Virus record (IMG/VR): IMGVR_UViG_3300025141_014484
Coordinates: 1-64,000 of that record
Direction: 5' to 3' (one strand)
Length of the DNA stretch: 64,000 bases
Origin: a virus
Shown here: piece by piece, positions 8,413 to 26,236 of the stretch
Layout: each line of letters opens with the position of its first letter
Position numbering within the stretch: the stretch's first letter is position 1
Translations under genes and position numbers: made by a program
The notes under the pieces: model-generated
What the model was told of the DNA's origin: nothing
The model's database searches: none
What the model saw: only the letters and a program-made list of their open reading frames with translations

Positions 8413-8413
8413 A

Positions 8414-9208: not shown

Positions 9209-10052
9209 TATCTTGATATTAGGGGGAAATCGATTTTCTGGGAAGTTGGTCACAGAAAAATTATATAATCAAGGGCACAATATAACAGTTTTAAACAGGA
9301 CAGGTACAGCCCCTGTGCCATGTAAAATTATACAAGGTGATAGAAATGACGAGAGCTGGCTAAAATCTGCGCTTCAAGATAAATTTTTTGATTGCATTGT
9401 TGATATGTGTCTATATCGTTTGGAACAAGCGAAAAAATCTATACCAATATTTGAAAGCAGCACAAATAGATATGTTTTTATTAGTAGCATCGCCGCGTAT
9501 CAACAAAGTGAAGTGTTTCCCATTAACGAGAACCACCCGTCCGGTCCTTGGCCTATACACGGGGACTATGGAATAGAAAAATTAAAAATAGAGCGTTATT
9601 TGCCATCATTTAAAGGCCTTTCCTATGTCATCTTGCGTCCAACATATGTTATAGGAAAAAATAACCACCATAACAGGGAAGGCTATTATTTTGATAAAAT
9701 ATTAAATAATGAACCAATTGACATTGAGGGCGATGGAAAAGCAATATTATCATTTGTGTTTGTAGAAGATGTTGCTAATATCATTGTTATTCTTGCGACA
9801 TCAAGCAAGCTGCCTAAGGAGGTATATAACATCTGCAATGATGAGTTTATCACCATAAAAGGGTTCATTGAACTACTATCTGGTGTAATAGGAAAATCCG
9901 TCCCCCTTAATACTGTTGATGAAGTGGTGTCGTTTAAGAATGAGCACTGTTTTTTTTCGAACGAGAAAGTAAAAAAGTATTTGAATTATAAATTTAAATC
10001 ATTAAAACAAGGAATATCAGAATTATATGAGCACGCATATAAAATACCCTAG
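9201..10052 (+). CDS. NAD-dependent epimerase/dehydratase family protein
   Basis: A 283-residue extended short-chain dehydrogenase-like protein. The N-terminal strand and loop ILILGGNRFSGK is an atypical NAD-binding turn (GGNRFSG). ISSIAAY supplies the catalytic serine region and YGIEK the YxxxK pair. SFVFVEDVANII and YNICNDE are the usual C-terminal landmarks. It is closest in pattern to the atypical SDR group that includes CSP41-like proteins. It presumably reduces or epimerises a nucleotide sugar. It overlaps both neighbours (8 and 26 bases), which indicates an operon. From here to about 14.1 kb the DNA is visibly AT-richer than before. Confidence 0.78.
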   Translation: MLDILILGGNRFSGKLVTEKLYNQGHNITVLNRTGTAPVPCKIIQGDRNDESWLKSALQDKFFDCIVDMCLYRLEQAKKSIPIFESSTNRYVFISSIAAYQQSEVFPINENHPSGPWPIHGDYGIEKLKIERYLPSFKGLSYVILRPTYVIGKNNHHNREGYYFDKILNNEPIDIEGDGKAILSFVFVEDVANIIVILATSSKLPKEVYNICNDEFITIKGFIELLSGVIGKSVPLNTVDEVVSFKNEHCFFSNEKVKKYLNYKFKSLKQGISELYEHAYKIP

Positions 10053-11142
10053 AGCAAAACCTTATTTTTCAGATAAGTCGAAACAAAAAGCAGTTTTTTA
10101 TTTTAAGGAAATATTAGATACTGGTAATCTAATTCAAGGAAAATATGTCAAAGAATTAGAGGACAAGTTTGCGAATTTTATTGGTACGAAATATGCTATA
10201 GCCACCAATTCTTGTACATCTGCATTGGAGATAGTGATTAAGGCATCAGGAATAAAAGATAAAAAAATTCTTGTTCCATCACAAACATTTGTCGCGACGG
10301 GAAATGCAGTAATAACGTCTGGAAACACCCCGGTATTTGTCGATATGCATGAAGATACCTTGTGCATGTCTTTCGAATCAATTAAAAAGAATATGACCTC
10401 AGATGTCGCTGCTATTATATTAGTTCATATAGGCGGCCTGATAACTCCAGAATATTATGAAATTAAATCATATTGTGATGAGAATAACATATACTTATTT
10501 GAAGATTCAGCGCATGCGATAGGCTCGAGCATCGATGGAAGAAGGTCTGGCACCCTCGGAACCGCGTCATGTTTTTCTTTTTATCCCACAAAGATAATGA
10601 CTACCGGTGAGGGAGGAATGATAACAACTGATTCTGAAGAATTGTCCGATCTATGTCGAATTTACAGAAATCATGGTGGCGATGGAAGAAATTTCTATTA
10701 TAACGCGTCGAACCACAGAATGACAGAGATAAGCGCCGCCATAGGACTAACACAGATTAGTGAAGTTGGTATGTTCATAGAAGACAGGAACAGAATCGCC
10801 TCGTCATATATCAGCCATTTGTCTGGTGTTGAGAACATTAGACTATTACCCATTTATGAACACATATTTAATTGCTATTGGAATTTTTATTTTATTTTAG
10901 ATGACAGTATCGACCGAGAAGATTTTAGAATAAAATTGTTGAAACATGGCATACAAACAGGAGATGCATACTCTCCTCCTTGTCATCTACAAAAGGTATT
11001 CAATTCATACATAAGTTCGAATCAAGATTTTTCGGTCACAGAGAGAATTTTAAAAAACCATGTGTCCTTACCAATGTATACTGAACTGCAAGAGGACGAT
11101 GTTAAATATATTGTTACTAGGGTAAAGGAGGCCTTAAAATAA
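10027..11142 (+). CDS. DegT/DnrJ/EryC1/StrS aminotransferase
   Basis: A 371-residue, full-length PLP-dependent sugar aminotransferase. Asp160 in FEDSAHAIG should contact the pyridine nitrogen, and Lys189 in SFYPTKIMTTGEGG should form the Schiff base. ATNSCTSALE is the phosphate-binding segment. Members convert a 4-keto or 3-keto nucleotide sugar to an amino sugar, with glutamate as donor. The dehydratases at 7408 and 9201 are plausible suppliers of the keto substrate. The ATG at 10027 lies inside the end of the epimerase gene. Its TAA overlaps the ATG of the WbqC gene. Confidence 0.9.
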   Translation: MSTHIKYPRAKPYFSDKSKQKAVFYFKEILDTGNLIQGKYVKELEDKFANFIGTKYAIATNSCTSALEIVIKASGIKDKKILVPSQTFVATGNAVITSGNTPVFVDMHEDTLCMSFESIKKNMTSDVAAIILVHIGGLITPEYYEIKSYCDENNIYLFEDSAHAIGSSIDGRRSGTLGTASCFSFYPTKIMTTGEGGMITTDSEELSDLCRIYRNHGGDGRNFYYNASNHRMTEISAAIGLTQISEVGMFIEDRNRIASSYISHLSGVENIRLLPIYEHIFNCYWNFYFILDDSIDREDFRIKLLKHGIQTGDAYSPPCHLQKVFNSYISSNQDFSVTERILKNHVSLPMYTELQEDDVKYIVTRVKEALK

Positions 11143-11738
11143 TGAAAATAGCAATCCACCAGCCAGAACATTTTCCTTATATGGGATTTTTTCAAAAAAT
11201 GCAATCAGTTGACGTGTTTGTGGTATTGGATGATGTCCAATATACGAAGGGCGGCTGGCAAAACCGTAATAAATTTTTGAATAAGAACGATGTAGACGAA
11301 TTCTTTACAGTGCAGGTCGAGAAAGGCGCCAATAAAAAATTAATAAAAGATGTTGGTTTGGTGGACGGCCCCTGGAGAAAAAAAATAATAAAAAAAATAC
11401 AACAGAATTTTGGCTTTGATTTATCTTACATATACAATAAAGATAGTTTATTAGAAATGAATATGCTTTCTATTGAGTGGGGTAGGGACAAGCTTGGTAT
11501 TAACACTGAGATGATTATGAGCAGCGATTTAGGCATTAAATCCACAAAAACCGAAAGAATATTAGATATCTGTAAAGAACTAAATGCAGATGAATATGTT
11601 TGCGGACAAGGATGTCTAGATCAGAGATATGGCGCCTATCTGGACACCGCGATGTTTAGTGATATTGAGTTGACAGTCCACAAGCCATCGCTAAAAAATT
11701 ATTATTCCGTCATTTATAATGTATCGGAGACTAAGTGA
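11142..11738 (+). CDS. WbqC family protein
   Basis: A 198-residue protein with the WbqC-family N terminus: IAIHQPEHFPYMGFFQKM, then DVFVVLDDVQYTKGGWQNRN. Family members sit in O-antigen and capsule loci, often next to DegT aminotransferases, and are thought to help make modified sugars; the exact reaction is not settled. Here it lies between the aminotransferase and a PIG-L deacetylase, the same kind of neighbourhood. It ends in a 4-base GTGA overlap with the next gene. Family assignment is firm; function is inferred from family context. Confidence 0.88.
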   Translation: MKIAIHQPEHFPYMGFFQKMQSVDVFVVLDDVQYTKGGWQNRNKFLNKNDVDEFFTVQVEKGANKKLIKDVGLVDGPWRKKIIKKIQQNFGFDLSYIYNKDSLLEMNMLSIEWGRDKLGINTEMIMSSDLGIKSTKTERILDICKELNADEYVCGQGCLDQRYGAYLDTAMFSDIELTVHKPSLKNYYSVIYNVSETK

Positions 11739-12397
11739 AATTTTTAGGTTATGATAATGTACTGTGCTTATCTCCACATCCGGATGATATTGAATATAGT
11801 ATGATGGGCACCATTATGAAATATAGTGACACATCTTTTACGGTTTTGTGTCTAACTGGTGGAGGAACGAAGTTTTTAAAAGCAAAGTGTCTTAATTCTG
11901 GATATACAATAGATCGCCAAGCAGAAGTTAGAAATTCTTGGAAAGAGAATAATATAGATAATGTAAAAATACTTTTTTCTGATTGTGAATATCTGGAAGA
12001 AAAAGATAGAGACCCGGGTTGGATTAATTATTTAGAAAATGAATATACTAAAAGATATGATTATGATTGTATTTTAATGCCAACAAGAGATGATTCTATG
12101 TTCGAACACAGATTCGTTAATGGATTGGCCCCCGCGTTGACTAGACACCACCCTATATCAATCGTGGAATATCGTACCCCAAGCACATTAAATTCTTGGA
12201 GTGCAAATATGTTTGTGGATATTAGTGCCCTTTACGACAAAAAAACAAAAGCATTGAAATGTTTCGAGTCACAACAAGAAAAATCTTATTTTTCAAAATT
12301 AGCATTAGAAATGTTTCATACAAATTTTCAATGTGGAAAAAAAGGTATGATAAAAACAGAACAATTTAAAATTATAGAACTTTTTGTAAAGGAGTAG
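11735..12397 (+). CDS. PIG-L/LmbE-like deacetylase, GTG start
   Basis: A 220-residue zinc-dependent deacetylase of the PIG-L (LmbE) family. The signature SPHPDDIE places His15 and Asp18 as zinc ligands and Asp17 as general base. MPTRDDSMFEHR near the middle should hold the third histidine. These enzymes remove an N-acetyl group from GlcNAc-type sugars or carrier-linked sugars. In this island it could free an amine for formyl or other acylation, or prepare an amino sugar; this is inference. The start is the GTG that overlaps the WbqC stop by four bases. Confidence 0.87.
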   Translation: MKFLGYDNVLCLSPHPDDIEYSMMGTIMKYSDTSFTVLCLTGGGTKFLKAKCLNSGYTIDRQAEVRNSWKENNIDNVKILFSDCEYLEEKDRDPGWINYLENEYTKRYDYDCILMPTRDDSMFEHRFVNGLAPALTRHHPISIVEYRTPSTLNSWSANMFVDISALYDKKTKALKCFESQQEKSYFSKLALEMFHTNFQCGKKGMIKTEQFKIIELFVKE

Positions 12398-12405
12398 TAA
12401 AAAAT

Positions 12406-13278
12406 ATGAAAAAATACACAGTAATGTCGGCAGACTCAAATCCAGAATATTTGTTTTTTGTCCCATTGGCGTGCGCCTTTTGGAAAGATCTTGGTTATAA
12501 TCCATACGTGATCCTTGTAGACAATGATGATATTAATCACAATATTTTAGACCTAGTTTTGGAGACGTCTAAAAACGTAGGAGCACACGTAAATCATTTT
12601 AAACACATCAGCGGCTATAGAACTTCTACTGTTGCGCAAATTTCAAGATTATTTGCCGCCGCGGATCCTTTATTCAAAGATGATGATTATATTATAACAG
12701 ATGATATTGATAAGTTTGTTATATCTTATCCATGGTTTAATCAACAAAATTTTTCTAAAGATATTCATATCTTTGATATAGACGAAACAAATTATACGCG
12801 CCTCAAAATTGGGTATATAGGTATGCAGGCCCGGATCTGGAAAGAGGTTATGAATGTTTCGGATTCAAGTCTCGGAGAAAATGTTGAGAAATGTTTGGAA
12901 GAACATCTTTCAAAAGATTCTTATAAGAACGGACAAAGACTCTCTCAATTTGAAAAAGAAAGAGATGACGCGTGGAATCTAGATGAGTATTTATTAACAA
13001 AATCTGTCTTCAATAGTCAATATTATCCGGATAAATGTCAGATGATTGAAAGAGGTGGTAACCATTTGGGACTTAGAAATGGCAGAATTGACAGGACTTT
13101 CTGGAAAGAAACCATGTCTATGTACCTTAGAGCACAACTAATAGATGTTCATTTGCATCGAGATCCATATCAGGACTGGATGTGGAAAGACATAAAATTG
13201 ATTATGTCGACAGTATTTTCTCCAAAGGAAATAGAAACCTTTCAGGAATATAAAGATAAATTTGTGGAGTTATTATAA
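12406..13278 (+). CDS. Hypothetical protein, possible GT-A glycosyltransferase
   Basis: A 290-residue soluble protein I cannot place in a named family. It starts with a strand (YTVMSADSNPEY), and around residues 93-103 DYIITDDIDKF gives Asp99-Asp100-Ile-Asp102, like the DxD metal site of a GT-A transferase. A conserved-looking QMIERGGNHLGLRNGRIDR lies near the C terminus. The context, between a deacetylase and an exostosin-like gene, supports a sugar-transfer role, but this is inferred. AAGGAG lies shortly before the ATG, a good ribosome-binding site. Confidence 0.6.
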   Translation: MKKYTVMSADSNPEYLFFVPLACAFWKDLGYNPYVILVDNDDINHNILDLVLETSKNVGAHVNHFKHISGYRTSTVAQISRLFAAADPLFKDDDYIITDDIDKFVISYPWFNQQNFSKDIHIFDIDETNYTRLKIGYIGMQARIWKEVMNVSDSSLGENVEKCLEEHLSKDSYKNGQRLSQFEKERDDAWNLDEYLLTKSVFNSQYYPDKCQMIERGGNHLGLRNGRIDRTFWKETMSMYLRAQLIDVHLHRDPYQDWMWKDIKLIMSTVFSPKEIETFQEYKDKFVELL

Positions 13279-13279
13279 G

Positions 13280-14125
13280 ATGGAAAATTTTTTAGAGCAT
13301 AATATCGATATTCATGAATATATCACTGGTAATCGGTTTATAGATATATGCGAAACATTACAAATTACTTTTTGTAAAACTGATTATTTGAGCGACTATA
13401 CGAATACGGAACAAAGTATATTTGTAACACATAATAGCGATTACCACATAGAAAGAAATAGATATTCAATTAAACCAAGGAAAATAAAAAAATGGTTTGC
13501 ACTGAATAAGGACTATGATGACAATAATATAATCTCTATACCTATAGGAGTAGAGAGCATGAACTTTAGGATTAACCCCACAAGTCATATGGGGAAGTAT
13601 TCTTCTAGAGGAAACGGCAAGGACTCTTTTGGGAAGGCAATTTATTTAGACAAATTAGCAAAACAAAAAATAAAGCACGATAAACTGATATACTTGAATA
13701 TGAATCCCGACACATTCAGGCTGGAGAGACAGCATGTTTTAGACTTATTCGGTGAGGACCCACGCGTTACAAATAGAAAAAACCTCATATGGAAGGAATA
13801 TTACGAAGATCTGGCGTCACATAAATTTGTTATTTCGCCTCGCGGAAATGGCGTTGATTGTCATCGAACATGGGAAGCACTTTATTTGAGAACCATCCCA
13901 ATAGTTAGAAGAAGTGTGTGTATGAATGAATTTGAAGACCTTCCGATTTTATATATTGACAAATGGGAAGAATTATGTTATACTAATTTACAAGAGAAGT
14001 ATGAAGAGATGGTCTCTAAGAAATACGATCTAGGTAAAATGAAAATAAGTTACTGGGAAAAGAGGATCGCAGATGCAGCAGGCAGAGTTAATGAGTGCCA
14101 ACCTCTTCCTGGCGCGAGGCTATAA
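13280..14125 (+). CDS. Exostosin-like glycosyltransferase
   Basis: A 281-residue protein. I take the ATG at 13280, one base after the upstream stop, rather than the upstream TTG at 13262 inside the previous gene. The C-terminal half has the exostosin/GT47-like pattern: KFVISPRGNGVDCHRTWEAL, then RTIPIVRR and LPILYIDKWEEL. In that fold the Arg-Gly and His-Arg-x-Trp-Glu residues line the nucleotide-sugar site. The N-terminal half is not recognisable. The donor is unknown. It is transcribed in line with the gene before it and the methyltransferase after it. Confidence 0.72.
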   Translation: MENFLEHNIDIHEYITGNRFIDICETLQITFCKTDYLSDYTNTEQSIFVTHNSDYHIERNRYSIKPRKIKKWFALNKDYDDNNIISIPIGVESMNFRINPTSHMGKYSSRGNGKDSFGKAIYLDKLAKQKIKHDKLIYLNMNPDTFRLERQHVLDLFGEDPRVTNRKNLIWKEYYEDLASHKFVISPRGNGVDCHRTWEALYLRTIPIVRRSVCMNEFEDLPILYIDKWEELCYTNLQEKYEEMVSKKYDLGKMKISYWEKRIADAAGRVNECQPLPGARL

Positions 14126-14842
14126 ATGAAAGAGATTAAATATCTTGAAACGGATGATGTGTTTAAAATTTTTCACGAACACGTTCTTCCTAATTTAATA
14201 GATGAATGGAAATATTGTCCTCTCCCGATGGAGAGAAACGTTAAAAATTGGAAGTGGGAAGGGAAAGACTTGCCAAGAGTAATTTCACTTCTAGAATTCG
14301 ATGAGTTTATTCAAAACAATAATTTATCTTTCAAAAAAGCCTTATGTATAAATGGTCGCGACGACCCGGAGTATGAATATGTGTCATGTTCTGATGGTCT
14401 TATAGTTAATTTCGAGGATGATTGTATAAACCACGATGTTCAACGACTTGATATCGAAGAAAAGGGTTTTGATTTTTGTATGTTGAATCAAACCCTAGAA
14501 CACCTCTATGATCCACTGAGCGCTCTTTGCCACATTTGTGACCACATGTGCCCGGGCGGAATCTTATATTTTAATGTTCCGGTAATTAATTTACCACATG
14601 GAATTCCTTTTCACTTTTATAGCGGATTCACCCCCACGGGTATTGGCACACTTTTGGAGAGAGCCGGATTCGAGATACTAACAATAGGACAATGGGGCAA
14701 TAAAGAATATATAAAGATTTTATTCGAAGAATATGATTGGCCTGATTATAGAAAATTGATTAATCCCGGATTCAGTGATCGTGACCACCCTGTTATAGCT
14801 TGGGCATTTGCAAGAAAGCCCTGTACAAAAGGAGAAAAATGA
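14126..14842 (+). CDS. Methyltransferase-like protein with degenerate motif I
   Basis: A 238-residue protein with the second half of a class I methyltransferase: DFCMLNQTLEHLYDPLSAL (motif with acidic/aromatic loop), MCPGGILYFNVPVIN, and HFHFYSGFTPTG-like landmarks that end in a late strand. The expected glycine-rich SAM loop (GxGxG) is missing; the matching place reads CINGRDDPEYEY. It may bind SAM in a modified way or be inactive. Similar proteins occur in O-antigen clusters. It starts directly after the exostosin-like gene stop and its end overlaps the next start (ATGA). Confidence 0.65.
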   Translation: MKEIKYLETDDVFKIFHEHVLPNLIDEWKYCPLPMERNVKNWKWEGKDLPRVISLLEFDEFIQNNNLSFKKALCINGRDDPEYEYVSCSDGLIVNFEDDCINHDVQRLDIEEKGFDFCMLNQTLEHLYDPLSALCHICDHMCPGGILYFNVPVINLPHGIPFHFYSGFTPTGIGTLLERAGFEILTIGQWGNKEYIKILFEEYDWPDYRKLINPGFSDRDHPVIAWAFARKPCTKGEK

Positions 14843-15585
14843 GTAATTTATATGTGATATCGACCGGCAGAAATCCGAATCATTTCCTGTATCGTTGTGT
14901 TTATTCACTCCAGACTCAATTGGCCCACCCAACAGAGCATATTGTTATCGATGACGTCAGCGATGATGGTACTCCGGACCTTATAGCCAAATTGCCGGAG
15001 TATGAGAATGTGAGTATAATACAAAACAAAGAAAGAAAATATAGATTAAAAAATATATATGAACATGCAATTGATAAAGATCCTGAAGATATTATCTGCC
15101 TAGTAGATACAGATGATTATTTATCTGATGTTTATGTTTTAGATCTTATCAAAAAGGGCTATGAAGAAAACCCACATGTAGAATATATTTACAGCCAATA
15201 TGTTCTTTCTACCGGTGAGATCGGCTGCAGTAGAAGTATTCCAGATCCTACATGGGATCCCTACACGGGGCCCTGGATAACAAGTCATTTGTGTACTTTT
15301 AAGGCTAAAGCCATTCAGGGGATTTCGATTGAGAATTTTCTTGATTGGAACGGAGAATGGTTTAAAATTGCTACAGATCATGCTTTAATATTGCCGGTTA
15401 TACATCGTCTCAAGCAAAAAACAGGAGACTATTCAACAATAGGGTTTATTAATCGTCCCACTTATGTGCATACTTTTCATGGAAACCCTTCCAAGCCAAG
15501 GAGTGGCACTCCGGAGGCGGATGCGCGAGCAGCCTTGGCTGTTAAGTGTTCCACATATATTAAACAAAGAGGATACATAGAATAA
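14839..15585 (+). CDS. GT2-family glycosyltransferase
   Basis: A 248-residue GT-A transferase. I chose the ATG at 14839, which has AAAGGAG a few bases upstream and overlaps the previous stop as ATGA, over a start at 14800 inside the preceding gene. The fold shows LYVISTGRN, then the strand and DDVSDDGT loop that binds the nucleotide base. The metal-binding DTD is at residues 90-92 within LVDTDDYLSD. It is an inverting transferase of unknown donor. The next gene starts one base after its stop. Confidence 0.88.
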   Translation: MSNLYVISTGRNPNHFLYRCVYSLQTQLAHPTEHIVIDDVSDDGTPDLIAKLPEYENVSIIQNKERKYRLKNIYEHAIDKDPEDIICLVDTDDYLSDVYVLDLIKKGYEENPHVEYIYSQYVLSTGEIGCSRSIPDPTWDPYTGPWITSHLCTFKAKAIQGISIENFLDWNGEWFKIATDHALILPVIHRLKQKTGDYSTIGFINRPTYVHTFHGNPSKPRSGTPEADARAALAVKCSTYIKQRGYIE

Positions 15586-15586
15586 A

Positions 15587-16009
15587 ATGAAAAAAATATA
15601 TTCATTAGTAGATGAAGAAAGGTTGCTTCATATAATTTTAAGAGGTAAAGAAGTTACAACGGAGAGACTAAATGTTGTTGATGACGAACAGTTTTTACAA
15701 CTAGCAGCAATGAGGTTGCCTAAAGGAAAAACCTTTAAGCCCCATAAACACGTTATTTACCCAAAATTAACAAATATTGCTCAAGAATCTTGGGCTGTGA
15801 TGAGAGGTAGCGTAAAAGCTATTTTATATGATATCGATGATGAGATTATAGCAGAAGAAGTGTTGAATGCTGGTGATTGCAGTATTACGCTCTATGGTGG
15901 CCATACTTATGAAATTTTAGAAGATGATACCTTGGTATATGAATATAAGACGGGCCCCTATTTGGGCGTTGAAAGAGATAAAGAGTTTATAGAGAAATGT
16001 TTTAGATGA
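15587..16009 (+). CDS. Cupin-fold protein of glycan loci
   Basis: A 140-residue small protein with cupin features: KPHKH with two histidines near residues 45-50, a QESWAVMRGSVKAI strand pair, and GDCSITLYGGHTYEIL as the second cupin half. Related single-cupin proteins, including WbuC-like ones, are common in polysaccharide loci, where they may isomerise or stabilise nucleotide sugars. Which reaction this one performs cannot be told from sequence. Its stop overlaps the ATG of the following methyltransferase. Confidence 0.7.
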   Translation: MKKIYSLVDEERLLHIILRGKEVTTERLNVVDDEQFLQLAAMRLPKGKTFKPHKHVIYPKLTNIAQESWAVMRGSVKAILYDIDDEIIAEEVLNAGDCSITLYGGHTYEILEDDTLVYEYKTGPYLGVERDKEFIEKCFR

Positions 16010-16551
16010 TTAAAATAAATATGGGTTGCGGATGGCGTAACTTTGGCACTGATTGGGTCCATATTGATGGGGGCGACTATAAGCACTTGGATGCACACGA
16101 TATTACAAAGCTTTCATATGATAATGATTCGGTGGATTTGATTTATGCATCTCATGTGTTAGAGTATTTTGATTGTGAAGAAGCTTTAGAGGCATTGGCA
16201 GAATGGAACCGGGTATTAAAGCCTGGGAGCACCCTGAGGCTAGCGGTACCGGACTTCGCGTCAATGGCGCGCCTCTACACAACAGAGAACCATTCCTTAA
16301 GTTCGTTTCTAGGTCCGCTCTACGGAAAGATGAAGATGTCCGATACGATGATTTATCACAAAACAGCATATGATATGATAACCTTAAAATCACTTTTGGA
16401 ACGTACAGGATTCAAAAACATAGCGCGCTATGACTGGAGAGATACCGAACATAGCCACATCGATGATCACTCTCAGGCGTATCTTCCTCATATGGATAAA
16501 GAGACGGGGACTTTGATAAGCTTAAACGTAGAATGTAAGAAAAATCTTTAG
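16006..16551 (+). CDS. SAM-dependent methyltransferase
   Basis: A 181-residue class I methyltransferase. Motif I is INMGCGWRNFG (Gly7-Cys-Gly9), followed by DWVHIDGG with the acidic residue that binds the SAM ribose. DLIYASHVLEYFDCEEA and EWNRVLKPGSTLRLAVPDF match motifs II-III of the methyltransferase-11 type. RAVLKPG-like sequence and VPDF are typical of sugar-locus methyltransferases. It probably O-methylates a sugar or glycan end. It shares a 4-base ATGA overlap with the cupin gene. Confidence 0.88.
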   Translation: MIKINMGCGWRNFGTDWVHIDGGDYKHLDAHDITKLSYDNDSVDLIYASHVLEYFDCEEALEALAEWNRVLKPGSTLRLAVPDFASMARLYTTENHSLSSFLGPLYGKMKMSDTMIYHKTAYDMITLKSLLERTGFKNIARYDWRDTEHSHIDDHSQAYLPHMDKETGTLISLNVECKKNL

Positions 16552-16581
16552 AGCATTCAGTAAAAAGGAGGCAGCACTATA

Positions 16582-17187
16582 ATGAGAGAAGTAGATAGAT
16601 TTTTTGCAGATGGTGGAGATGATGCCCTATTGTTTAATTATGATTTGGACTCTGATAGCATAGTGTTTGATATAGGTGGCCATGAAGGGGCCCTTACTGC
16701 CGGTATGTACAAAAAGTTTGGTTGTAATGTATGTGTCTATGAGCCCATAGCAGAATTTTATAGAAACCTTAGTCTAAGATTTTTAGGAGTAGAAAAAATT
16801 AAAGTTTTTAATTATGGGGTGGGATGTAAAGATGAGCAAATTCGATTTAATATGTGGGGAGAATCAACTTCTGCATTCGATCGCTCCGATAAACACCAGG
16901 GTCCAATAGAAATAGCAGAAGTAAAATCTTTTGCTACTGTTTTTAGGGAATCGAATTTAAATATGATTGACGTTTGTTCTATAAACATAGAGGGAGGAGA
17001 ATATGGGCTGCTGTCTCATATCATAGATGAAAATTTATCTCCGCAAATAAGAAACTTTCAAATTCAATTCCACGATTTTATTCCAAACGCACCGAAGAAA
17101 AGAAAAGAAATTCAGAATATGCTCAGCGCCACTCACAAGATGACGTTTAGTTATGATTTTGTGTGGGAAAATTGGACACTAAAGTAA
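16582..17187 (+). CDS. FkbM family methyltransferase
   Basis: A 201-residue methyltransferase. VFDIGGHEGALT (Asp30 onwards) is the FkbM form of motif I, followed by VYEPIAEFYRNL where Glu binds SAM ribose. The middle has the family NYGVGCKDEQIRF block, and DVCSINIEGGEYGLL is the late motif with the acidic pair. FkbM enzymes O-methylate sugars or polyketides. A strong AAAGGAGG lies about 10 bases before the ATG, in one of the few true gaps of the island (16552-16581), so this start may set the pace for a new translational block. Confidence 0.88.
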   Translation: MREVDRFFADGGDDALLFNYDLDSDSIVFDIGGHEGALTAGMYKKFGCNVCVYEPIAEFYRNLSLRFLGVEKIKVFNYGVGCKDEQIRFNMWGESTSAFDRSDKHQGPIEIAEVKSFATVFRESNLNMIDVCSINIEGGEYGLLSHIIDENLSPQIRNFQIQFHDFIPNAPKKRKEIQNMLSATHKMTFSYDFVWENWTLK

Positions 17188-17197
17188 AAAGAGCCAC

Positions 17198-18067
17198 ATG
17201 ACAACGATAAATATTGTAGGGTATGATACTTGGTATTCGGAAAGACCTTGGTGCCGAGGTCTCTCTCAGAATCAAGAATTTAGTGTGGTTTTTAATGAGA
17301 AGAAAGAAAATGAGATAACATATTTTATACGAGACGGAATCCATGAGGTGGACAACGTTGAGTCAAAAATTAAGGTGGCTCTTCTAACCGAATGTCGGCC
17401 ATTTGATATACAAAATAGATGCGGCTTTATATCTAAAAATGCACATAAATTTGACCACATTGTCACATATGATGATAAATTAATTGGTGAATTGCCAGAT
17501 AAGGCATGCCCGACCCCAGAGGGCGGCACATGGGTATGGCCTCAAGAGCGACAACAACTGTACGAAAAGAATAAGCTATGTTCTTATATAGTGTCGGTTA
17601 AACAGTCGACTGAAGAGCAAAAAATGCGAGTAAAGTTACTTCAACTTTTTTATTCTCTCAAAAATCAATTCCCCACAATAGATCTCTATGGCCGCGGCCA
17701 CAACCCATTTCCAGAGGATCATGATAACGATTATGATGGGAAATCATTAATTTTGAAAGATTACGCTTTCTCTATTGCATTAGAAAACTGGATCCAGGAC
17801 AACTATTTTTCTGAAAAAATTATGGATTGTTTTATGGTTGGAACGGTTCCGATTTATATGGGAGCGCGAAAGATCGGAGATTATTTTAATAGTGATGGTA
17901 TAATCATTGTTAATTCAATCGAAGATGTTTTAAAAGAGGTTAATACTTTATCGTTTGAAAGGTATAATAAAATGATCGATGCAGTCAAAGAAAATTTTGA
18001 AATTGCTAAAAAACATTATGATACGGTAGCTTATTCATATAACAAATTTATAAAGGATAAAAAATGA
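17198..18067 (+). CDS. GT10-family (alpha-1,3/4-type) fucosyltransferase
   Basis: A 289-residue protein with the GT10 donor-binding signature: KDYAFSIALENWIQDNYFSEKI from residue 187, then GTVPIYMGARKI. In this family the Glu-Asn and the EK pair contact GDP-fucose. The N-terminal half is divergent, as usual for the acceptor-binding part. It would transfer L-fucose from GDP-L-fucose to a GlcNAc-like acceptor; the acceptor is not known. The same island encodes Gmd and Fcl at 22680 and 24462, which would make the donor. It overlaps the next gene by 4 bases. Confidence 0.88.
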   Translation: MTTINIVGYDTWYSERPWCRGLSQNQEFSVVFNEKKENEITYFIRDGIHEVDNVESKIKVALLTECRPFDIQNRCGFISKNAHKFDHIVTYDDKLIGELPDKACPTPEGGTWVWPQERQQLYEKNKLCSYIVSVKQSTEEQKMRVKLLQLFYSLKNQFPTIDLYGRGHNPFPEDHDNDYDGKSLILKDYAFSIALENWIQDNYFSEKIMDCFMVGTVPIYMGARKIGDYFNSDGIIIVNSIEDVLKEVNTLSFERYNKMIDAVKENFEIAKKHYDTVAYSYNKFIKDKK

Positions 18068-18885
18068 CAGATAAAGTATTGAGCAATTTTGTAGACAAAC
18101 ATTTGGGCAAGAGAATTTTTATTTTTGGGACCGGTCCAGGCTTAAATGATGTTACACCTGAGCAACTGGCCCATATAGAGGAAAATGAAATTTCCATAGG
18201 TGTTAACTTTACACCATTTCATGTTACGCCCACTTATTGGGTAGCAGGAGGTCATGCTACTTATACTGCCTTTGCGATCGAACACCTTAGTGATAAGACG
18301 ACTGGGATTTTTCATCATGATCCAGGTGCGCGCAGTATGTATCCGTCGTCTGAAAAAATAGTATATACGGACGACAGCATCGCGCCTGACCACGGAAATC
18401 CAATCCCCCCCGACAAGATACCCTCGACACTTATTGGGGGCCACAATATTTTACTCAGCGCGTCTCATTTGGCATATATACTGGGGGCGTTTGAAATTGT
18501 TTACATAGGATTCTCACAAGTTAATCGACTACACTTTTATAATTTGTGGAGCGAAGAACGACAAGAAGAATTAAAAAGTAAATTACGTAATTTAGCTGAA
18601 AAATATAAAGATAATGCTTCAATCGTGGAGTGTGTAAATGAAATGTTAAACATAGACGAGGATGATGAACAACGCTGGTGCCATTTCAAGCCTGTTGATG
18701 TTTGTAAGAACCTCTCATTCAAAAAAGAGGGGAAAGCCCATCACAACTATCCTATATTTAAAAATTACGTGGACCAATTCAAGGGAGAGGCGATTAGAGT
18801 GCTCACCACAGCCACAGAGGGAATATGCGTTGACGCCGGCGCAGGAATAGTGAAATTGGAAGATATTATTGGAGTAGGAAAATAA
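18064..18885 (+). CDS. DUF115/MptE-like protein, possible nonulosonate transferase
   Basis: A 273-residue protein with an N-terminal Rossmann-type loop IFIFGTGPGLNDV (Gly22 to Asp29), then IGVNFTPF and, later, GGHNILLSASHLAYILGAFEIVYIGF. This pattern is like DUF115/6-hydroxymethylpterin pyrophosphokinase MptE-like proteins, which are related to Maf glycosyltransferases and the sialyltransferase GT42 fold. The gene lies directly before the NeuB fusion and NeuA, so transfer of a CMP-activated nonulosonic acid is an attractive job, but this rests on context. The C-terminal third (about 190-273) is unfamiliar. Confidence 0.6.
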   Translation: MTDKVLSNFVDKHLGKRIFIFGTGPGLNDVTPEQLAHIEENEISIGVNFTPFHVTPTYWVAGGHATYTAFAIEHLSDKTTGIFHHDPGARSMYPSSEKIVYTDDSIAPDHGNPIPPDKIPSTLIGGHNILLSASHLAYILGAFEIVYIGFSQVNRLHFYNLWSEERQEELKSKLRNLAEKYKDNASIVECVNEMLNIDEDDEQRWCHFKPVDVCKNLSFKKEGKAHHNYPIFKNYVDQFKGEAIRVLTTATEGICVDAGAGIVKLEDIIGVGK

Positions 18886-18886
18886 A

Positions 18887-21265
18887 ATGAAAAAAGTTGT
18901 AATTATTGGGGCCGGCCCGACTGGTTTAGTAACCGCTCATTCTTTGAGTGAAAAAACAAATTATGATATTAAAATATTTGAAGCAAATTCATTTGTAGGC
19001 GGATTAGTCGGTAGTGGCGAAATAGATGGCATGACTTACGATTATGGTCCTCATATATTTCATTCTGCACATGATGACATCACAGATTTTTGGAAAAGTA
19101 ATTTTGGAGATTTATTGCTTGAAAAACCTTTTTATTATAAAAATTATAAAAATGGTATTTTATATGATTATCCTATATCTTGGGAATCTATTGAGAAATT
19201 TCCCAATGATATAAAAAAGAAGGTAAAATATGAAATAGAGAATTTAAAACCAGAAAATTTAAAACGCTCAAGAAACTTTAAGGAGTGTGTTGAAGAATTA
19301 GTCGGCCCCACGTTGCAAAGTATTTTTTTTGAAAAATACACCGAAAAATTGTGGGGTATTTCACCAGAAAAAATGTCTTCTAATTGGGCACCAAAGAGGA
19401 TTCATTTAAGAAAGAAGCACAAAGCATTTTGGTCAGGTCAGTATTCGGCATGTGGAAAATATGGTGCAGGAAAAATAATGGAAAGACTTTCCAAAATGTC
19501 AGAGGATAATGGAGTTAGTGTTCACCTCAATCATAGGGTTGTCGGTGCAAAGACAGATGGCTACACGATTACTGATCTAATATTTGATAATGGAACATCC
19601 TACGATGTTTCTGATTCAATTATTGTATCTACAATACCATTAAATGTAGTTTGTAAAACCTTAGATATCCCTTGCAGTTTGACTTTTAATTCAGTACGAC
19701 TCGTGTACATGGTATTTTCGAAAGAAATAGTTTTACCTAAAGACGTTCATAGCATTTATTATGCACAAGATGATTTTCACTTTCATAGAGTTACAGAACA
19801 AAAGCAATATTCAGATTATGGATATCCTAAAGACAAAACTCTTTTAATTTTTGAAATTTCTTATACTGCAAGAAAACACTTAGGAGAGATTTCAGATGAA
19901 CAAATAATCAGTGAAGTGCTTGAACAGTCTTGTGAACTTGGTCTCGTAGAGAAAAAAGATTTTGTGAAAGGTTTTAGTAAACGTTTACCATATGTTAATC
20001 CTGTAATGATTACAGGGTATGAGAAAGAATTATCAAAGATAAATTCAGAATTAAGTAGATATAACAATCTTCACGTTGCCGGCGGCTCCGGAGAATTTAT
20101 GTATGGTGATGTTCAGACAATGGTGGCACGAGGCTGGGATATGGCTGATTTGTTGTCATCTAAGCATTATGAAATTAATAAAAATCTTAAACGTGGCGCC
20201 AAATTCAAGTTTAATGATGAGGTTGAATTATTCGGTTATAAAATTGGTAAAAAACATCCCACTCTTATTATTGCGGAGATCGGGATTAATCATAGAGGAA
20301 ATCTTCAGTTTGCCAAAGATTTAATAAAAGAAGCTAAAGAGAGTGGTTGTGAGATTGCTAAATTACAAACATACAGTGCAAAAAATCGTGTATCAGATAA
20401 AACGATGGAATCTAAATATGCCGATAGAACACTTGGAATGGAAGAATCAACAAGCGAAATGTTTAGTAGATTTGAGCTAACTTATGATGAACATTTAGAG
20501 TTGATAAATTATGCCAAGGAGCTTGAAATACCTTTAATTTCAACACCGTTTGATGAGGAAAGCGTTGATATGCTTCTGGATCTGGGAGTACAAGCATTTA
20601 AAATAGCTTCATTTGACATTGTTAATTTACCGTTTATTAGGTATGTAGCGTCAAAAGGTTTGCCAATTATTCTATCAACTGGTATGAGTCAAATGAGTGA
20701 AATTGAAGATGCAATAGATGCTATTTCACAAGAACGAAATCCTAATCTTGTTTTGCTTCATTGTGTGAGTGCCTATCCGTGTGATATATCAGACGTAAAT
20801 TTGAAAGTAATTGATACCATGAGAAAATCATTTGGTGTGCCCGTAGGATACTCCGACCATACTGTTGGTACATTGGCAAGTAATATGACATTTACGTTAG
20901 GGGCGGATATGCTAGAAAAACACTTTACACTTGATAAATTGATGGAAGGACCAGACCACGTACTGTCTGCTGACCCAAAAGAAATGAAAACTATTGTATC
21001 AGATAGAAATAAAATATTTATTGCCCTAGGAGATGGAATTAAAAGACCGACACCAATTGAATATCGTCAAATAAATTCACAGAGAAAGTCCATTTTTGCA
21101 AAAATACAAATTAAAAAGGGGGAAATCTTGACACTTGAGAATATTACAGTTAAAGGTCCTGGTCTTGGCTTGCTCCCGAAATATTTATCAATTATTTTGG
21201 GCAAAAAGGTAACGAAGGATATTGATAGTGATTTACCAATAACCTGGGACGCAGTCTTAAGTTAG
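18887..21265 (+). CDS. FAD-dependent oxidoreductase fused to NeuB-type nonulosonate synthase
   Basis: One 792-residue open frame with two complete enzymes. Residues 1 to about 425 are a flavin amine-oxidase/UDP-galactopyranose-mutase-like domain: VVIIGAGPTGLVTAHSL, DYGPHIFHS, and a C-terminal FAD end GGSGEFMYGDVQTMV. From His457, TLIIAEIGINHRGN opens a NeuB domain with KLQTYSAKN, STPFDEESVD, KIASFDIVN, STGMS, HCVSAYP, GYSDHT, EKHFTL and GPDHVLS all in order, ending in a SAF (antifreeze-like) domain from about 730. NeuB condenses PEP with ManNAc-type sugars. No frameshift or internal start separates the parts. The DNA is markedly AT-rich. Confidence 0.9.
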   Translation: MKKVVIIGAGPTGLVTAHSLSEKTNYDIKIFEANSFVGGLVGSGEIDGMTYDYGPHIFHSAHDDITDFWKSNFGDLLLEKPFYYKNYKNGILYDYPISWESIEKFPNDIKKKVKYEIENLKPENLKRSRNFKECVEELVGPTLQSIFFEKYTEKLWGISPEKMSSNWAPKRIHLRKKHKAFWSGQYSACGKYGAGKIMERLSKMSEDNGVSVHLNHRVVGAKTDGYTITDLIFDNGTSYDVSDSIIVSTIPLNVVCKTLDIPCSLTFNSVRLVYMVFSKEIVLPKDVHSIYYAQDDFHFHRVTEQKQYSDYGYPKDKTLLIFEISYTARKHLGEISDEQIISEVLEQSCELGLVEKKDFVKGFSKRLPYVNPVMITGYEKELSKINSELSRYNNLHVAGGSGEFMYGDVQTMVARGWDMADLLSSKHYEINKNLKRGAKFKFNDEVELFGYKIGKKHPTLIIAEIGINHRGNLQFAKDLIKEAKESGCEIAKLQTYSAKNRVSDKTMESKYADRTLGMEESTSEMFSRFELTYDEHLELINYAKELEIPLISTPFDEESVDMLLDLGVQAFKIASFDIVNLPFIRYVASKGLPIILSTGMSQMSEIEDAIDAISQERNPNLVLLHCVSAYPCDISDVNLKVIDTMRKSFGVPVGYSDHTVGTLASNMTFTLGADMLEKHFTLDKLMEGPDHVLSADPKEMKTIVSDRNKIFIALGDGIKRPTPIEYRQINSQRKSIFAKIQIKKGEILTLENITVKGPGLGLLPKYLSIILGKKVTKDIDSDLPITWDAVLS

Positions 21266-21953: not shown

Positions 21954-22679
21954 ATGACAGAAAAAGTAAATTATACATCTTGGCCACTAGGTCGCATACC
22001 CGAAGAGTGGCACCGACCTGAATTGGGCCAACTTAGGGACGCTGGCTATGAATGGGAGGACCCACGCGACGCAGTCGATCTATTTGAACAAAAGGTAGCA
22101 AAGTTTGCCGGCGCCCAATATGGGGTGGCCCTTGATTGTTGCTCTAACGGGTTGTTTTTGGCACTCAAATATCTTCAAGCTAAAAAAACAGTTACTATTC
22201 CGGCGCAGACATATGTGTCAGTGCCAATGCAGGTTATTCATGCGGGCTGTAAGATAAGATTTGAGGACATTGAATGGTCCGGGATATATCAGCTTAAGCC
22301 ATACCCGGTGTATGATGCCGCAACGCGGTTTACAAAAGGAATGTTTGTGGGAGGGGACGCCCTTCAGGTCCTGTCTTTCCAAATTAAGAAGCGACTTCCG
22401 ATCGGCCGCGGCGGCATGATTTTAACAAATAGCGAAAAAGCCTATAATTGGCTAAAAAAAGCCTCTTACGACGGCAGAGATCTAGAAAAGTATTACCCAG
22501 AGGACGAATTCGAGCTCCTAGGATGGCATATGTATATGACTCCGGAGGACGCAGCAAGAGGGATTTTGCTCATGGATCAGCTCCCAGAAGAAAATGAAGA
22601 CTCTGGAGGTAACGAAAACTACTCAGTTTTGTCAGATAAACGGGTATTTCAAAGATATATTGATGAACAGGAGAAGTAA
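21954..22679 (+). CDS. Short DegT-type aminotransferase-like protein
   Basis: A 241-residue protein that resembles the large PLP domain of DegT/DnrJ/EryC1/StrS enzymes but lacks the C-terminal small domain; normal members have 360-400 residues. ALDCCSNGLFLAL is the phosphate-binding segment, Asp121 lies in VYDAATRF, and Lys145 or Lys146 in SFQIKKRLPIGRGG is the likely Schiff-base lysine. The frame is intact and ends one base before gmd, so it is a compact form and not a recent truncation. It may be an aminotransferase with reduced activity or a dehydratase-like relative. It does not share the AT-richness of the preceding gene. Confidence 0.75.
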   Translation: MTEKVNYTSWPLGRIPEEWHRPELGQLRDAGYEWEDPRDAVDLFEQKVAKFAGAQYGVALDCCSNGLFLALKYLQAKKTVTIPAQTYVSVPMQVIHAGCKIRFEDIEWSGIYQLKPYPVYDAATRFTKGMFVGGDALQVLSFQIKKRLPIGRGGMILTNSEKAYNWLKKASYDGRDLEKYYPEDEFELLGWHMYMTPEDAARGILLMDQLPEENEDSGGNENYSVLSDKRVFQRYIDEQEK

Positions 22680-23648
22680 ATGACGAAAAGAGCACTGATT
22701 ACAGGTATTGCCGGCCAGGATGGTAGCTACCTGACGGAATATTTATTAGAGTTGGGGTATGAGGTATACGGTATTGTCCGGCGTAGCTCTGTTGCAGAAA
22801 ACCAAGACGCGCGCGTGGCCCACATTAGACATAAAATAAAAACATTTTATGGGGATTTAACTGATTATCCGTCACTCGTACGAATTGTGAGTGAGGTACA
22901 GCCACATGAAATCTATAACTTAGGGGCGATGAGCCATGTTCGTATCAGTTTTGATATGCCCTCTTTTACCATTCAGACCAATGCTATGGGTGTTTTAAAC
23001 TTGCTTGAAGTTTGTCGTACAATTGTCCCCCAGGCTAAATTTTATCAAGCAAGTTCCTCAGAAATGTTTGGAAATTCAGTAGACGATGACGGATCTCAAA
23101 GACTTACAACGCCAATGAATCCGGTGAGCCCCTATGGGTGTGCGAAAGTAATGGGATATAATTTGGTGCGACACTATAGAAATGCATACAAGATGCATGC
23201 CTGTAATGGAATCCTCTTTAATCATGAATCGCCCCGCCGAGGGTCTAATTTTGTTACCAACAAGGTTGTTAAAACCGCGGTACAGATTAAGAAGGGGCTT
23301 GTTGACCAGCTAGAGCTTGGCAATTTAGACTCCCAGCGTGATTGGGGCCATTCAAAAGATTACGTACGCGCGATGCACATGATCTTAAACCACCACACCC
23401 CAGATGAGTTTGTGGTGGCAACGGGACGTACACATTCGGTTAGGGATTTGTGCGAACATGTCTTTACAAGATTGGACATGGATTATCGAGATTACGTCGT
23501 TCAAAATCCAAAGTATATGAGGCCTGAAGAATTACGCTATCTTAAAGGGGACTCTTCTAAAATACGCGAAGTTTTAGGGTGGGAACCAGAATACACATTT
23601 GAAACTATGATGGACGAGATGGTAGATTACTGGATGGAAATTTTATAA
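22680..23648 (+). CDS. gmd: GDP-mannose 4,6-dehydratase
   Basis: A 322-residue extended SDR enzyme that converts GDP-D-mannose to GDP-4-keto-6-deoxy-D-mannose with NADP. Signatures are ITGIAGQDGSYLTEYLL for the cofactor loop, YGIVRRSS, NLGAMSHVRISFDMP, SSSEMFGN and SPYGCAK, which holds the YxxxK pair. FNHESPRRGSNFVTNKV and SQRDWGHSKDYV are diagnostic Gmd blocks. It is slightly shorter than cellular Gmd (about 345-370). Together with Fcl at 24462 it completes the route to GDP-L-fucose. The ATG follows the upstream TAA directly. Confidence 0.95.
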   Translation: MTKRALITGIAGQDGSYLTEYLLELGYEVYGIVRRSSVAENQDARVAHIRHKIKTFYGDLTDYPSLVRIVSEVQPHEIYNLGAMSHVRISFDMPSFTIQTNAMGVLNLLEVCRTIVPQAKFYQASSSEMFGNSVDDDGSQRLTTPMNPVSPYGCAKVMGYNLVRHYRNAYKMHACNGILFNHESPRRGSNFVTNKVVKTAVQIKKGLVDQLELGNLDSQRDWGHSKDYVRAMHMILNHHTPDEFVVATGRTHSVRDLCEHVFTRLDMDYRDYVVQNPKYMRPEELRYLKGDSSKIREVLGWEPEYTFETMMDEMVDYWMEIL

Positions 23649-23650
23649 AA

Positions 23651-24460
23651 ATGATCACATGCGATATCATAGGAGCGACCTCGTCTAATCCGGGCCTGGG
23701 AAACCAGCTCTTTATTATCGCGACCACGTTATCATTGGCGCTCGATAACAACACGACAGCCGTATTTCCAGACTTACTATATCCTCCCTATACTTTTTAT
23801 GGCAATACTATCTTTTCACAATTGGATCCTGGGGCCGACAAAGCCTTTGTTAGGCATGTGCATCAGGAAGAGCCGTATACGAGCACCATTTATAATAAGG
23901 TGCCATACAAAGAGGGCATGATACTTCGTGGACATTTCCAATCCTATAAATATTTCTATCACAATATCGACCACATTAGAAAATTATTTCGGTTGCCTCA
24001 ATTTATGACAGACTCTATCGATCAGAAGTATCGAGATATTTTGCAGCTGCCAAATACAGTATCACTTCATGTGCGCCGCGGCGATTATGTTGCCTTAACA
24101 GAGAATTATGCAACCTTGACAGATGAATATTATGAAGCAGCTCTAAGCAGGATTGAAAATTTTTCCAAAATTATTGTTTTTAGCGATGACATTTCGTGGT
24201 GCAAAGAGAATCTTCTACAAAATAGAAAAAAAGATCTTATTTTTATAGAAAACGAAATGGACGTTATGAGCATTTATCTGATGAGCAAGATGAAAAATAA
24301 TATAGTAGCAAATTCCACTTTTTCTTTGTGGGGAGCTTTTCTGAATGAAAATGAAAATGCGACAATAGTGGCCCCGCGACCATGGTTCGGCCCGGGCCGT
24401 ACTGCCGACAACGATAGAGAAACGGCCGACCTAATACCTCCCCACTGGATGAGAATATAA
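23651..24460 (+). CDS. GT11-family (alpha-1,2-type) fucosyltransferase
   Basis: A 269-residue protein with the GT11 hallmarks. GLGNQLFIIATTLSLAL opens the protein, LRGHFQSYKYF follows, and HVRRGDY (residues 140-146) is the GDP-fucose-binding motif. IVFSDDISWCKENL and NSTFSLWGAFL are the later family blocks. It would add L-fucose in alpha-1,2 linkage from GDP-L-fucose. It sits between gmd and fcl, the two genes that make its donor, so donor and transferase are co-expressed. Length is typical for bacterial members. Confidence 0.93.
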   Translation: MITCDIIGATSSNPGLGNQLFIIATTLSLALDNNTTAVFPDLLYPPYTFYGNTIFSQLDPGADKAFVRHVHQEEPYTSTIYNKVPYKEGMILRGHFQSYKYFYHNIDHIRKLFRLPQFMTDSIDQKYRDILQLPNTVSLHVRRGDYVALTENYATLTDEYYEAALSRIENFSKIIVFSDDISWCKENLLQNRKKDLIFIENEMDVMSIYLMSKMKNNIVANSTFSLWGAFLNENENATIVAPRPWFGPGRTADNDRETADLIPPHWMRI

Positions 24461-24461
24461 A

Positions 24462-25379
24462 ATGAAGCGCATACTGGTAACTGGTGGAACCGGCATGGTG
24501 GGTCACGCCCTTCAGGAGGCAATTCCCGGTGCAACGTTTGTGTCTTCAAAAGATGCAGATCTTAGAGTGTCCGACCAAGCCAACACTTTGATAGGAGAGG
24601 TCCAGCCTACCCATGTCATACATCTGGCAGCGCGCGTTGGAGGAGTTAAGGCTAATATGGATAATTTAGGCAGCTTTTATTATGATAATATCATGATAAA
24701 TACGAATGTCCTCGAAAGTTGCAGGATTCATCGGGTACAGAAAGTACTATCACTATTGAGCACATGCGTGTATCCAGATGGTGCACCCTATCCTCTTCAA
24801 GAAGAATCAATGCATATTGGAGCACCTCACACATCTAACTATGGATATGCTTATGCAAAGCGGATGGTTGATGTGCAGTCACGCGCCTATAGACAACAGT
24901 ATGGATCTAATTTTATAACCGTTATCCCAAATAATCTTTTCGGTGAAAATGATTATTTTCATTTACACAACTCGCACGTAATTCCTGCGATGATAAGAAA
25001 GATATATGAAGCCAGAGAAAATGATACGGATGCAGCCTTGTGGGGCACAGGGATGGTATATAGAGAATTTACGTATGCTAAAGATCTAGCAAAAATACTT
25101 TTTTTGTTATTGGATAATTATAATGAGGCCTCCCCCATTAATGTGGGGGCGCCCAAAGAGCACTTGATAAAAGATGTGGCAGAAAAAATTTGCTCAATTT
25201 TTGATTTTAAAAATGATATCATATGGAATGCCTCAATGCCCAAGGGGCAGTATAGAAAACCTTCGGACGACACAAAGCTAAGAACTATAGGGTACAGCGA
25301 CTATACAGAATTTGATGTTGCCTTACAGAATACGTGCGATTGGTTTGAGACAAATTACGAAAACGTGAGAGGACGATAA
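24462..25379 (+). CDS. fcl: GDP-L-fucose synthase
   Basis: A 305-residue SDR epimerase/reductase that turns GDP-4-keto-6-deoxy-D-mannose into GDP-L-fucose with NADPH. ILVTGGTGMVGHAL is the cofactor loop. HLAARVGGVKANM, LSTCVYPDGAPYP, YAYAKRMVDVQ (YxxxK) and NLFGENDYFHL are diagnostic Fcl/WcaG motifs. Length matches the family (about 310-320). It starts one base after the GT11 stop codon and two bases before the next epimerase gene. Partner enzyme is Gmd at 22680. Confidence 0.95.
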   Translation: MKRILVTGGTGMVGHALQEAIPGATFVSSKDADLRVSDQANTLIGEVQPTHVIHLAARVGGVKANMDNLGSFYYDNIMINTNVLESCRIHRVQKVLSLLSTCVYPDGAPYPLQEESMHIGAPHTSNYGYAYAKRMVDVQSRAYRQQYGSNFITVIPNNLFGENDYFHLHNSHVIPAMIRKIYEARENDTDAALWGTGMVYREFTYAKDLAKILFLLLDNYNEASPINVGAPKEHLIKDVAEKICSIFDFKNDIIWNASMPKGQYRKPSDDTKLRTIGYSDYTEFDVALQNTCDWFETNYENVRGR

Positions 25380-25381
25380 AT

Positions 25382-26236
25382 ATGCAAAAAGTTTTAGTAA
25401 CAGGGGGCCTAGGATTTATTGGGTCAAACTTGGTAGACTTACTGATGCTTACAGGAGAATATGATGTTACTGTAATAGATAATTTAATTTCCGAGTCGAG
25501 CAGCACCGACTATAAAAGAGAGAATGTTAAATATTGGGAAGCGGACATAAGAGACGTTAATCAAGCAAAATATATTCAAGACTTTGATGTTGTATTCCAC
25601 TTGGCTGCGCTGGCAAGAATCCAGCCCAGCTTCAAAAATCCACTAGAAACCATTAGTGTAGACACCTACGGTACCGCTACCGTTTGTGAGTTTGCAAGAA
25701 AATGTGGAGCAAAAATCGTGTATGCGGCCTCCAGCTCTTTTTACGCGGGCCCACATTTGAATCCCTATGCTTTTGCTAAATGGCAAGGAGAAGAAATTTG
25801 TACGCTCTACTCTGGTTGCTTTGGCATAAGTACGGCAATCGCCAGATTTTTTAATGTCTATGGGCCAAGACAACCGAAGACAGGAGATTATGCTACTGTA
25901 GTTGGGGTATTTGAAAGACAATATGCCGAGCACGCCCCTCTAACGATCACCGGGACAGGAGAGCAGAGAAGAGACTTTACTCATGTTTCAGATATTTGTT
26001 CGGGCCTCATCGCCATCTCAAAGGGAAGCTATGCGGGTGAAAAGTTTAATTTAGGATCAGCCAAAAATAATTCAATTAATGAGTTGGCGACGATGTTTAA
26101 TACGGAGATAAAATATATACCAAGTCGGCCTGGTGAAGCAGAAAACACATTAGCCGACATTACAAAAACCACAAAACTTACTGGGTGGTTACCAGAACAT
26201 AACTTACAACAATATGTGAAAGGAATTACAAAATGA
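25382..26236 (+). CDS. NAD-dependent epimerase, GalE-like
   Basis: A 284-residue extended SDR protein. VLVTGGLGFIGSNLVDLL is the NAD-binding loop, FHLAALARIQPS and YAASSSFYAG precede YAFAKWQGE with the YxxxK pair, and RFFNVYGPRQP and RRDFTHVSDI are typical of UDP-glucose/UDP-GlcNAc 4-epimerases. It is about 30 residues shorter than GalE. A likely task is to interconvert hexose nucleotides for one of the island's transferases. It is the last gene of the island; its stop overlaps the next ATG, which belongs to the phage core, so the island is inserted flush with the core genes. Confidence 0.85.
   Translation: MQKVLVTGGLGFIGSNLVDLLMLTGEYDVTVIDNLISESSSTDYKRENVKYWEADIRDVNQAKYIQDFDVVFHLAALARIQPSFKNPLETISVDTYGTATVCEFARKCGAKIVYAASSSFYAGPHLNPYAFAKWQGEEICTLYSGCFGISTAIARFFNVYGPRQPKTGDYATVVGVFERQYAEHAPLTITGTGEQRRDFTHVSDICSGLIAISKGSYAGEKFNLGSAKNNSINELATMFNTEIKYIPSRPGEAENTLADITKTTKLTGWLPEHNLQQYVKGITK

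Follow-up and report, generated by a model that had tools for sequence, protein, structure and literature searches.

A gene of a T4-like phage encodes, in one uninterrupted frame, a flavin domain followed by a complete NeuB-type sugar-acid synthase, and the same fusion, joined at the same point, is present in seven bacterial genomes. This FAD-NeuB fusion combines known enzyme families in an arrangement that is apparently undescribed; few bacteria carry it and, to date, a single phage. From its sequence we read the protein as a bifunctional enzyme of a nonulosonic-acid-type pathway, a member of a rare FAD-NeuB family of single origin from bacterial glycan islands that was taken into a phage cassette, with a step resembling that of UDP-galactopyranose mutase (UGM) as the most likely flavin reaction; we give this reading about an even chance of being correct.

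The fused frame and its junction

The window (the whole stretch of DNA analysed, 64,000 nucleotides) belongs to a linear virus contig of 64.5 kb, and the fused gene is an ATG frame of 792 codons at 18887-21265 on the plus strand, giving one protein of 792 aa (Table 1). Pfam matches in the N-terminal part are to Amino_oxidase (PF01593, residues 12-353, 2.3e-19), NAD_binding_8 (6-70) and GLF/UGM (147-329, 6.2e-11), and those in the C-terminal part to NeuB (479-719, 5e-87) and SAF (735-790, 4.3e-07). The earlier note on this DNA had described one frame holding a flavin domain with a full NeuB and SAF domain, which is correct, and a linker at 425-457, which is too long: the alignment to full-length NeuB proteins of known structure starts at residue 443, so that the NeuB half is complete from about residue 441 and the linker spans only about 430-441. 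Structure prediction of the linker, which that note had proposed, gave low confidence (pLDDT below 50 at 429-439), within a model of the fused protein of moderate quality (mean pLDDT 72.4, pTM 0.53) that carries no information on the packing of the halves.

The junction contains no stop codon, no in-frame ATG, GTG or TTG after about 20155 from which a separate NeuB gene could well start and, in the printed sequence, no Shine-Dalgarno-like motif; neither of the other frames connects the two domains.

Table 1. Features of the fused gene, its cassette and a recurrent bacterial neighbour (window positions unless a bacterial locus is named)
Feature	Position	Strand	Basis
Two glycosyltransferases, left cassette border	4172..7395	+	Pfam; 31-33% to the immuto pair, same order after nuclease
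Cassette interior: NAD epimerases, DegT aminotransferase, WbqC, PIG-L, methyltransferases, GT2, GT10	7408..18885	+	Pfam
FAD domain, N-terminal (UGM/PPO/amine-oxidase fold), residues 1-430	18887..20176	+	Pfam, UGM profile match, fold comparison
Inter-domain linker, about residues 431-441	20177..20209	+	Low pLDDT; homologous segment alignable in every fused member
NeuB TIM barrel and SAF (antifreeze-like) domain, residues about 442-792; Arg314 equivalent is Gly757	20210..21265	+	Pfam, PDB NeuB/PseI/SpsE, residue mapping
CTP_transf_3 cytidylyltransferase (NeuA/KdsB/PseF-like), short, 199 aa	21300..21899	+	Pfam/NCBIfam; related gene near the fusion in 6/6 bacterial loci
Right cassette part: short DegT, GDP-mannose dehydratase, GT11, GDP-fucose-synthase-like epimerase, epimerase	21954..26236	+	Pfam
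Rossmann-fold protein of bacterial loci	L230:8363-9418, L231:8427-9578, L232:1095-2312, L234:11738-12805		

Bacterial relatives and origin of the fusion

A six-frame search of 398 sampled Pseudomonadota genomes with the FAD half as query returned strong matches in seven of them (E 5e-83 to 1e-91), and every matching frame also encoded NeuB. Six of these seven proteins are complete (about 790-800 aa), while the L212/L235 copy is cut by a contig end. In the alignment the junction point is identical in the bacterial proteins and the phage protein; identity to the latter is 38-41% from end to end, 33-36% over the FAD half and 43-51% over the NeuB half. Carriers are found in 5 of the 48 sampled species of one class and in two other orders (1/78 and 1/120), and the 296 Bacteroidota and 118 Nitrospirota genomes contained stand-alone FAD relatives only, with no fused protein. 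The domain pair had been put forward as one not known as a described enzyme, and the open-access literature searched contained neither a description of a flavin step joined to a sialic-acid-type synthase nor biochemistry for any member of the family; the pairing is, however, not unique to this contig. Many known fused homologues, which the earlier note had set against its own proposal, proved to be in part a reality, in the form of this rare bacterial family.

Phage, plasmid and viral collections yielded no second fused copy beside the one viral contig. No relative emerged from pattern-based searches of viral contigs, whether these used the whole protein, either half or profiles, and tblastn against phage and plasmid sequences found no place covering 80% of the query. 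A NeuB profile gave 554 matches in viral contigs, and none of the best 80 of these 554 is N-terminally fused. The pattern GPHIFH retrieved from viral contigs stand-alone UGMs of about 365 aa (24-29% identity), and the pattern KGPGxGLLP retrieved 10 stretches, 0 of which matched NeuB. At eight loci with an unfused FAD relative, NeuB genes occur within about 8 kb of it in one case only (L244), so that these loci show no strong pairing of FAD and NeuB genes outside the fusion.

The trees of the two domains place all fused rows in a single clade, both for NeuB (113 rows, 7 fused; support 100/98) and for the FAD domain (54 rows, 8 fused; 100/99 on the branch). The branching order is alike in both trees, the phage copy being the deepest branch of the fused clade, followed by L234, L230 and then the L231-L236 group. 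This agreement indicates that the fusion arose once and has been inherited as a unit. The exact place of the fused FAD clade among its relatives is unsure because of the long branches that surround it. Phage UGMs were considered as the source of the FAD half and rejected, because viral UGMs form a clade apart from the fused FAD domains. The GC content is 33.7% in the fused gene and 30.8% in the next gene against a window mean of 41.2%, and the low values of these two genes fit an import into the phage.

Active sites of the two halves

The NeuB half scores above the gathering score of the NeuB family PF03102 (291.8 against 22.1 bits) and compares with the Neisseria meningitidis (Nme) NeuB at a fold Z of 31.6. 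In Nme numbering, Glu25, Lys53, Gln55, Lys129, Ser132, Ser154, Tyr186, Ser213, His215, Glu234, His236 and Asp247 are kept in 7/7 complete fused proteins, and this set includes the PEP and metal ligands (Lys53, Lys129, Ser132, Ser154, His215, His236). Like the NeuB/LegI/PseI synthases, the half combines a TIM barrel and SAF domain with metal and PEP ligands and a cytidylyltransferase neighbour; unlike them, it follows an N-terminal FAD domain, has Gly or Ser in place of Arg314 and scores below the cut-offs of both NCBIfam models, TIGR03569 (N-acetylneuraminate synthase, 368.4 against 399.65) and TIGR03586 (pseudaminic acid synthase, 300.8 against 340.25). The labels legionaminate synthase and pseudaminate synthase were rejected on account of these scores and the lost Arg314.

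Arg314 is the sole residue of the SAF domain directly in the active site, where it positions the N-acetyl group of ManNAc (PMC6795526). Its position is occupied by Gly in six and by Ser in one of the 7 fused proteins; Arg is present in 77 of the 84 comparison NeuBs that have a residue there. Because the arginine that positions the N-acetyl group is gone throughout the clade, the acceptor sugar probably differs from ManNAc, and this loss offers a way to recognise from sequence a synthase that uses another substrate. The replacement also occurs outside the fusion, five unfused viral NeuBs (L100, L133-L135, L159) having Gly or Ser there. Further positions specific to the fused proteins include Nme 133, 136, 283 and 289. 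The viral NeuBs of L133, L134 and L135, with Ser at the Arg314 position, are also unusual in their length of 618 aa (e.g. L134:7995-9848), with a C-terminal extension of 300 residues.

As regards the FAD half, a profile alignment to the T. cruzi UGM (4dsg) spans residues 4-410 (1.9e-24), and the predicted fold matches UGM 4dsh (Z 30.6, rmsd 4.7, 394 aligned), protoporphyrinogen oxidase (PPO; Z 30.3) and amine oxidase (Z 26.9), so that on the model the UGM and PPO scores are tied. In the numbering of the Klebsiella (Kp) UGM, the equivalents of Pro59, His60, Tyr155 and Trp160 (P55, H56, Y151, W156) and of Arg174, Arg280, Tyr349 and Asp351 (R171, R301, Y406, D408) are invariant in the 8 fused rows; the roles of most UGM-site residues are taken from PMC3624792. 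The two phosphate-binding arginines (R171, R301) and the flavin-loop histidine (H56) are thus retained. The protein is like UGM (PF03275) in its whole-domain fold, its GPHIFH histidine loop and these residues, but it differs in forming a separate clade on a long branch, in the attached NeuB, in the replacement of Tyr185 by Phe and the loss of Arg343, in the absence of Tyr314 from the phage copy only (Asn371) and in a TIGR00031 (UGM) score far below the cut-off (53.2 against 303.75).

The PPO model TIGR00562 is likewise below its cut-off (44.8 against 97.85), and the closest NCBIfam models are NF005547 and NF005548 (PRK07208-like, 'hypothetical protein'). These proteins have several active-site residues in common with the fused FAD half, but they are stand-alone, about 450-520 aa long with inserts, and have a GGHRFF loop instead of GPHIFH. 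Because many UGM-site residues are common to such uncharacterised flavoproteins, they mark a UGM-like site and are no proof of mutase activity; they favour UGM-like chemistry in a fold to which oxidases with tied scores also belong.

Glycan cassette, proposed pathway and alternatives

The phage is placed among T4-like phages because it encodes a baseplate wedge protein, PhoH and a late sigma factor; its nearest named relatives are Flavobacterium phage immuto, with 30% in the baseplate protein, and Microcystis phage Mel-JY01. The fused gene lies inside a glycan cassette of 22 kb (window 3380-26236), whose left border keeps the order of Immutovirus, an exonuclease gene (annotated as PD-(D/E)XK in immuto) and then two glycosyltransferases, and whose right border has a short DegT and a last epimerase with Immutovirus counterparts of 47% and 40% identity. 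The fusion itself belongs to the interior, and nothing in Immutovirus corresponds to it there. With conserved borders and a variable interior, an arrangement shared with immuto, the cassette resembles a site at which sugar pathways are exchanged, and it is into this interior that the phage appears to have imported an unusual bacterial sugar-acid enzyme. The short DegT (21954-22679) has 241 aa, about 120 aa below the usual length, and with a likewise short counterpart in Immutovirus (645 bp) it is a conserved short form and not a truncation. The cassette proteins at 8414-9208, 12406-13278, 15587-16009 and 18064-18885 have no Pfam or PHROG match.

A cytidylyltransferase accompanies the fusion: in the phage it starts 34 bases downstream, and in bacteria it adjoins the fusion or lies within about 3 kb of it in 6/6 loci whose flanks could be used (in L230 it forms the C-terminal part of a second NeuB protein). 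The 199-aa phage protein likely activates the sugar acid; it weighs against the bifunctional reading that NeuB genes of every kind often have a CTP-transferase beside them. Aldo/keto reductase genes are near the fusion in L231, L232, L233 and L236 (L232 by Pfam, the others by sequence likeness); none was found in the phage cassette, which also counts against that reading, nor, on inspection of frames, in L230 and L234. An uncharacterised Rossmann-fold protein of 350-406 aa with weak F420_oxidored/Shikimate_DH matches is near the fusion in 4/6 bacterial loci.

This neighbourhood makes a pathway from a sugar to a keto-deoxy sugar acid and then to a CMP-sugar acid the most likely one, in which the flavin enzyme would act ahead of, together with or following the synthase. 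We infer the reactions and substrates from the observed fusion, family, residues and gene context. The C-terminal half would most likely condense PEP with a free sugar to a 3-deoxy-keto acid, as its intact catalytic residues suggest, and the adjacent cytidylyltransferase, to judge by its conserved position, would use CTP to activate the resulting acid. For the N-terminal half we predict FAD binding in a fold of the UGM type that keeps the flavin-loop and phosphate-binding residues of UGM; its substrate would most likely be the same sugar or a nucleotide derivative of it, and its reaction a UGM-like flavin-N5 isomerisation, redox chemistry being the main alternative. The resulting sugar presumably decorates phage or host glycans. 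The 'altered nonulosonic acid' proposed in the earlier note is supported by the intact NeuB catalytic residues, the replaced Arg314 and the CTP-dependent activator near the fusion at every checkable locus. A bolder version, in which a UGM-type flavin-N5 rearrangement (ring contraction or epimerisation) and PEP condensation on a non-N-acetylated acceptor define a new class of nonulosonic acid with which phages decorate their own or host glycans, seems to us rather improbable. The fusion predicts which two reactions share one pathway, so that expression of a single protein could reveal an unknown acidic sugar.

That the gene is an artefact of assembly or sequencing joining two genes has a negligible probability: the fusion is on one viral contig only, but the same in-frame junction in seven independent genomes refutes both this and the missing-stop error near 20180-20255 that the earlier note had envisaged. 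It is also very unlikely that the phage copy is a non-functional passenger in decay, as its single copy, the Asn in place of the Tyr314 equivalent and the low-GC insert might suggest, since 12/12 NeuB catalytic positions are intact over a long branch, the frame is not disrupted and the equivalents of His60, Tyr155, Trp160, Arg174, Arg280, Tyr349 and Asp351 in the UGM site are all in place.

Alternatives for the chemistry have more weight. The flavin half could be an oxidase or dehydrogenase that oxidises the acid sugar, or a precursor of it, at a hydroxyl or amine, with a partner reductase that resets the stereochemistry to give an epimerised nonulosonic acid; the Pfam Amino_oxidase match, the fold shared with protoporphyrinogen and amine oxidases and the aldo/keto reductase genes of four bacterial loci point in this direction, against which stand the retained UGM residues of the flavin loop and the diphosphate-binding site and the lack of such a reductase in the phage cassette, L230 and L234, and we consider this the less probable course. 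More doubtful still are two functionally independent halves, a mutase of UGM type that produces a furanose sugar and a synthase of a sugar acid, fused for stoichiometry only. Such independence would agree with the completeness of each half, the short low-confidence linker with no confident interface and the other sugars made by the cassette (GDP-fucose-type genes), but not with a pair that arose once and was inherited jointly, nor with the changes specific to the fused proteins near the NeuB acceptor site, and the two subfamilies were not found side by side as unfused genes. The bifunctional enzyme with a UGM-like step is the reading we prefer.

Some minor observations concern the cytidylyltransferases. 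BLAST aligns only the first 150 or so residues of the phage protein to its bacterial neighbours of about 230 aa, and the bacterial motif LRPTSP reads LQPDHP in the phage. Two proteins, L230:6542-8299 (586 aa) and L004:5203-7038 (612 aa), likewise join NeuB to a pathway partner, which is here CTP_transf_3 and not a flavoprotein, and they do so in opposite domain orders.
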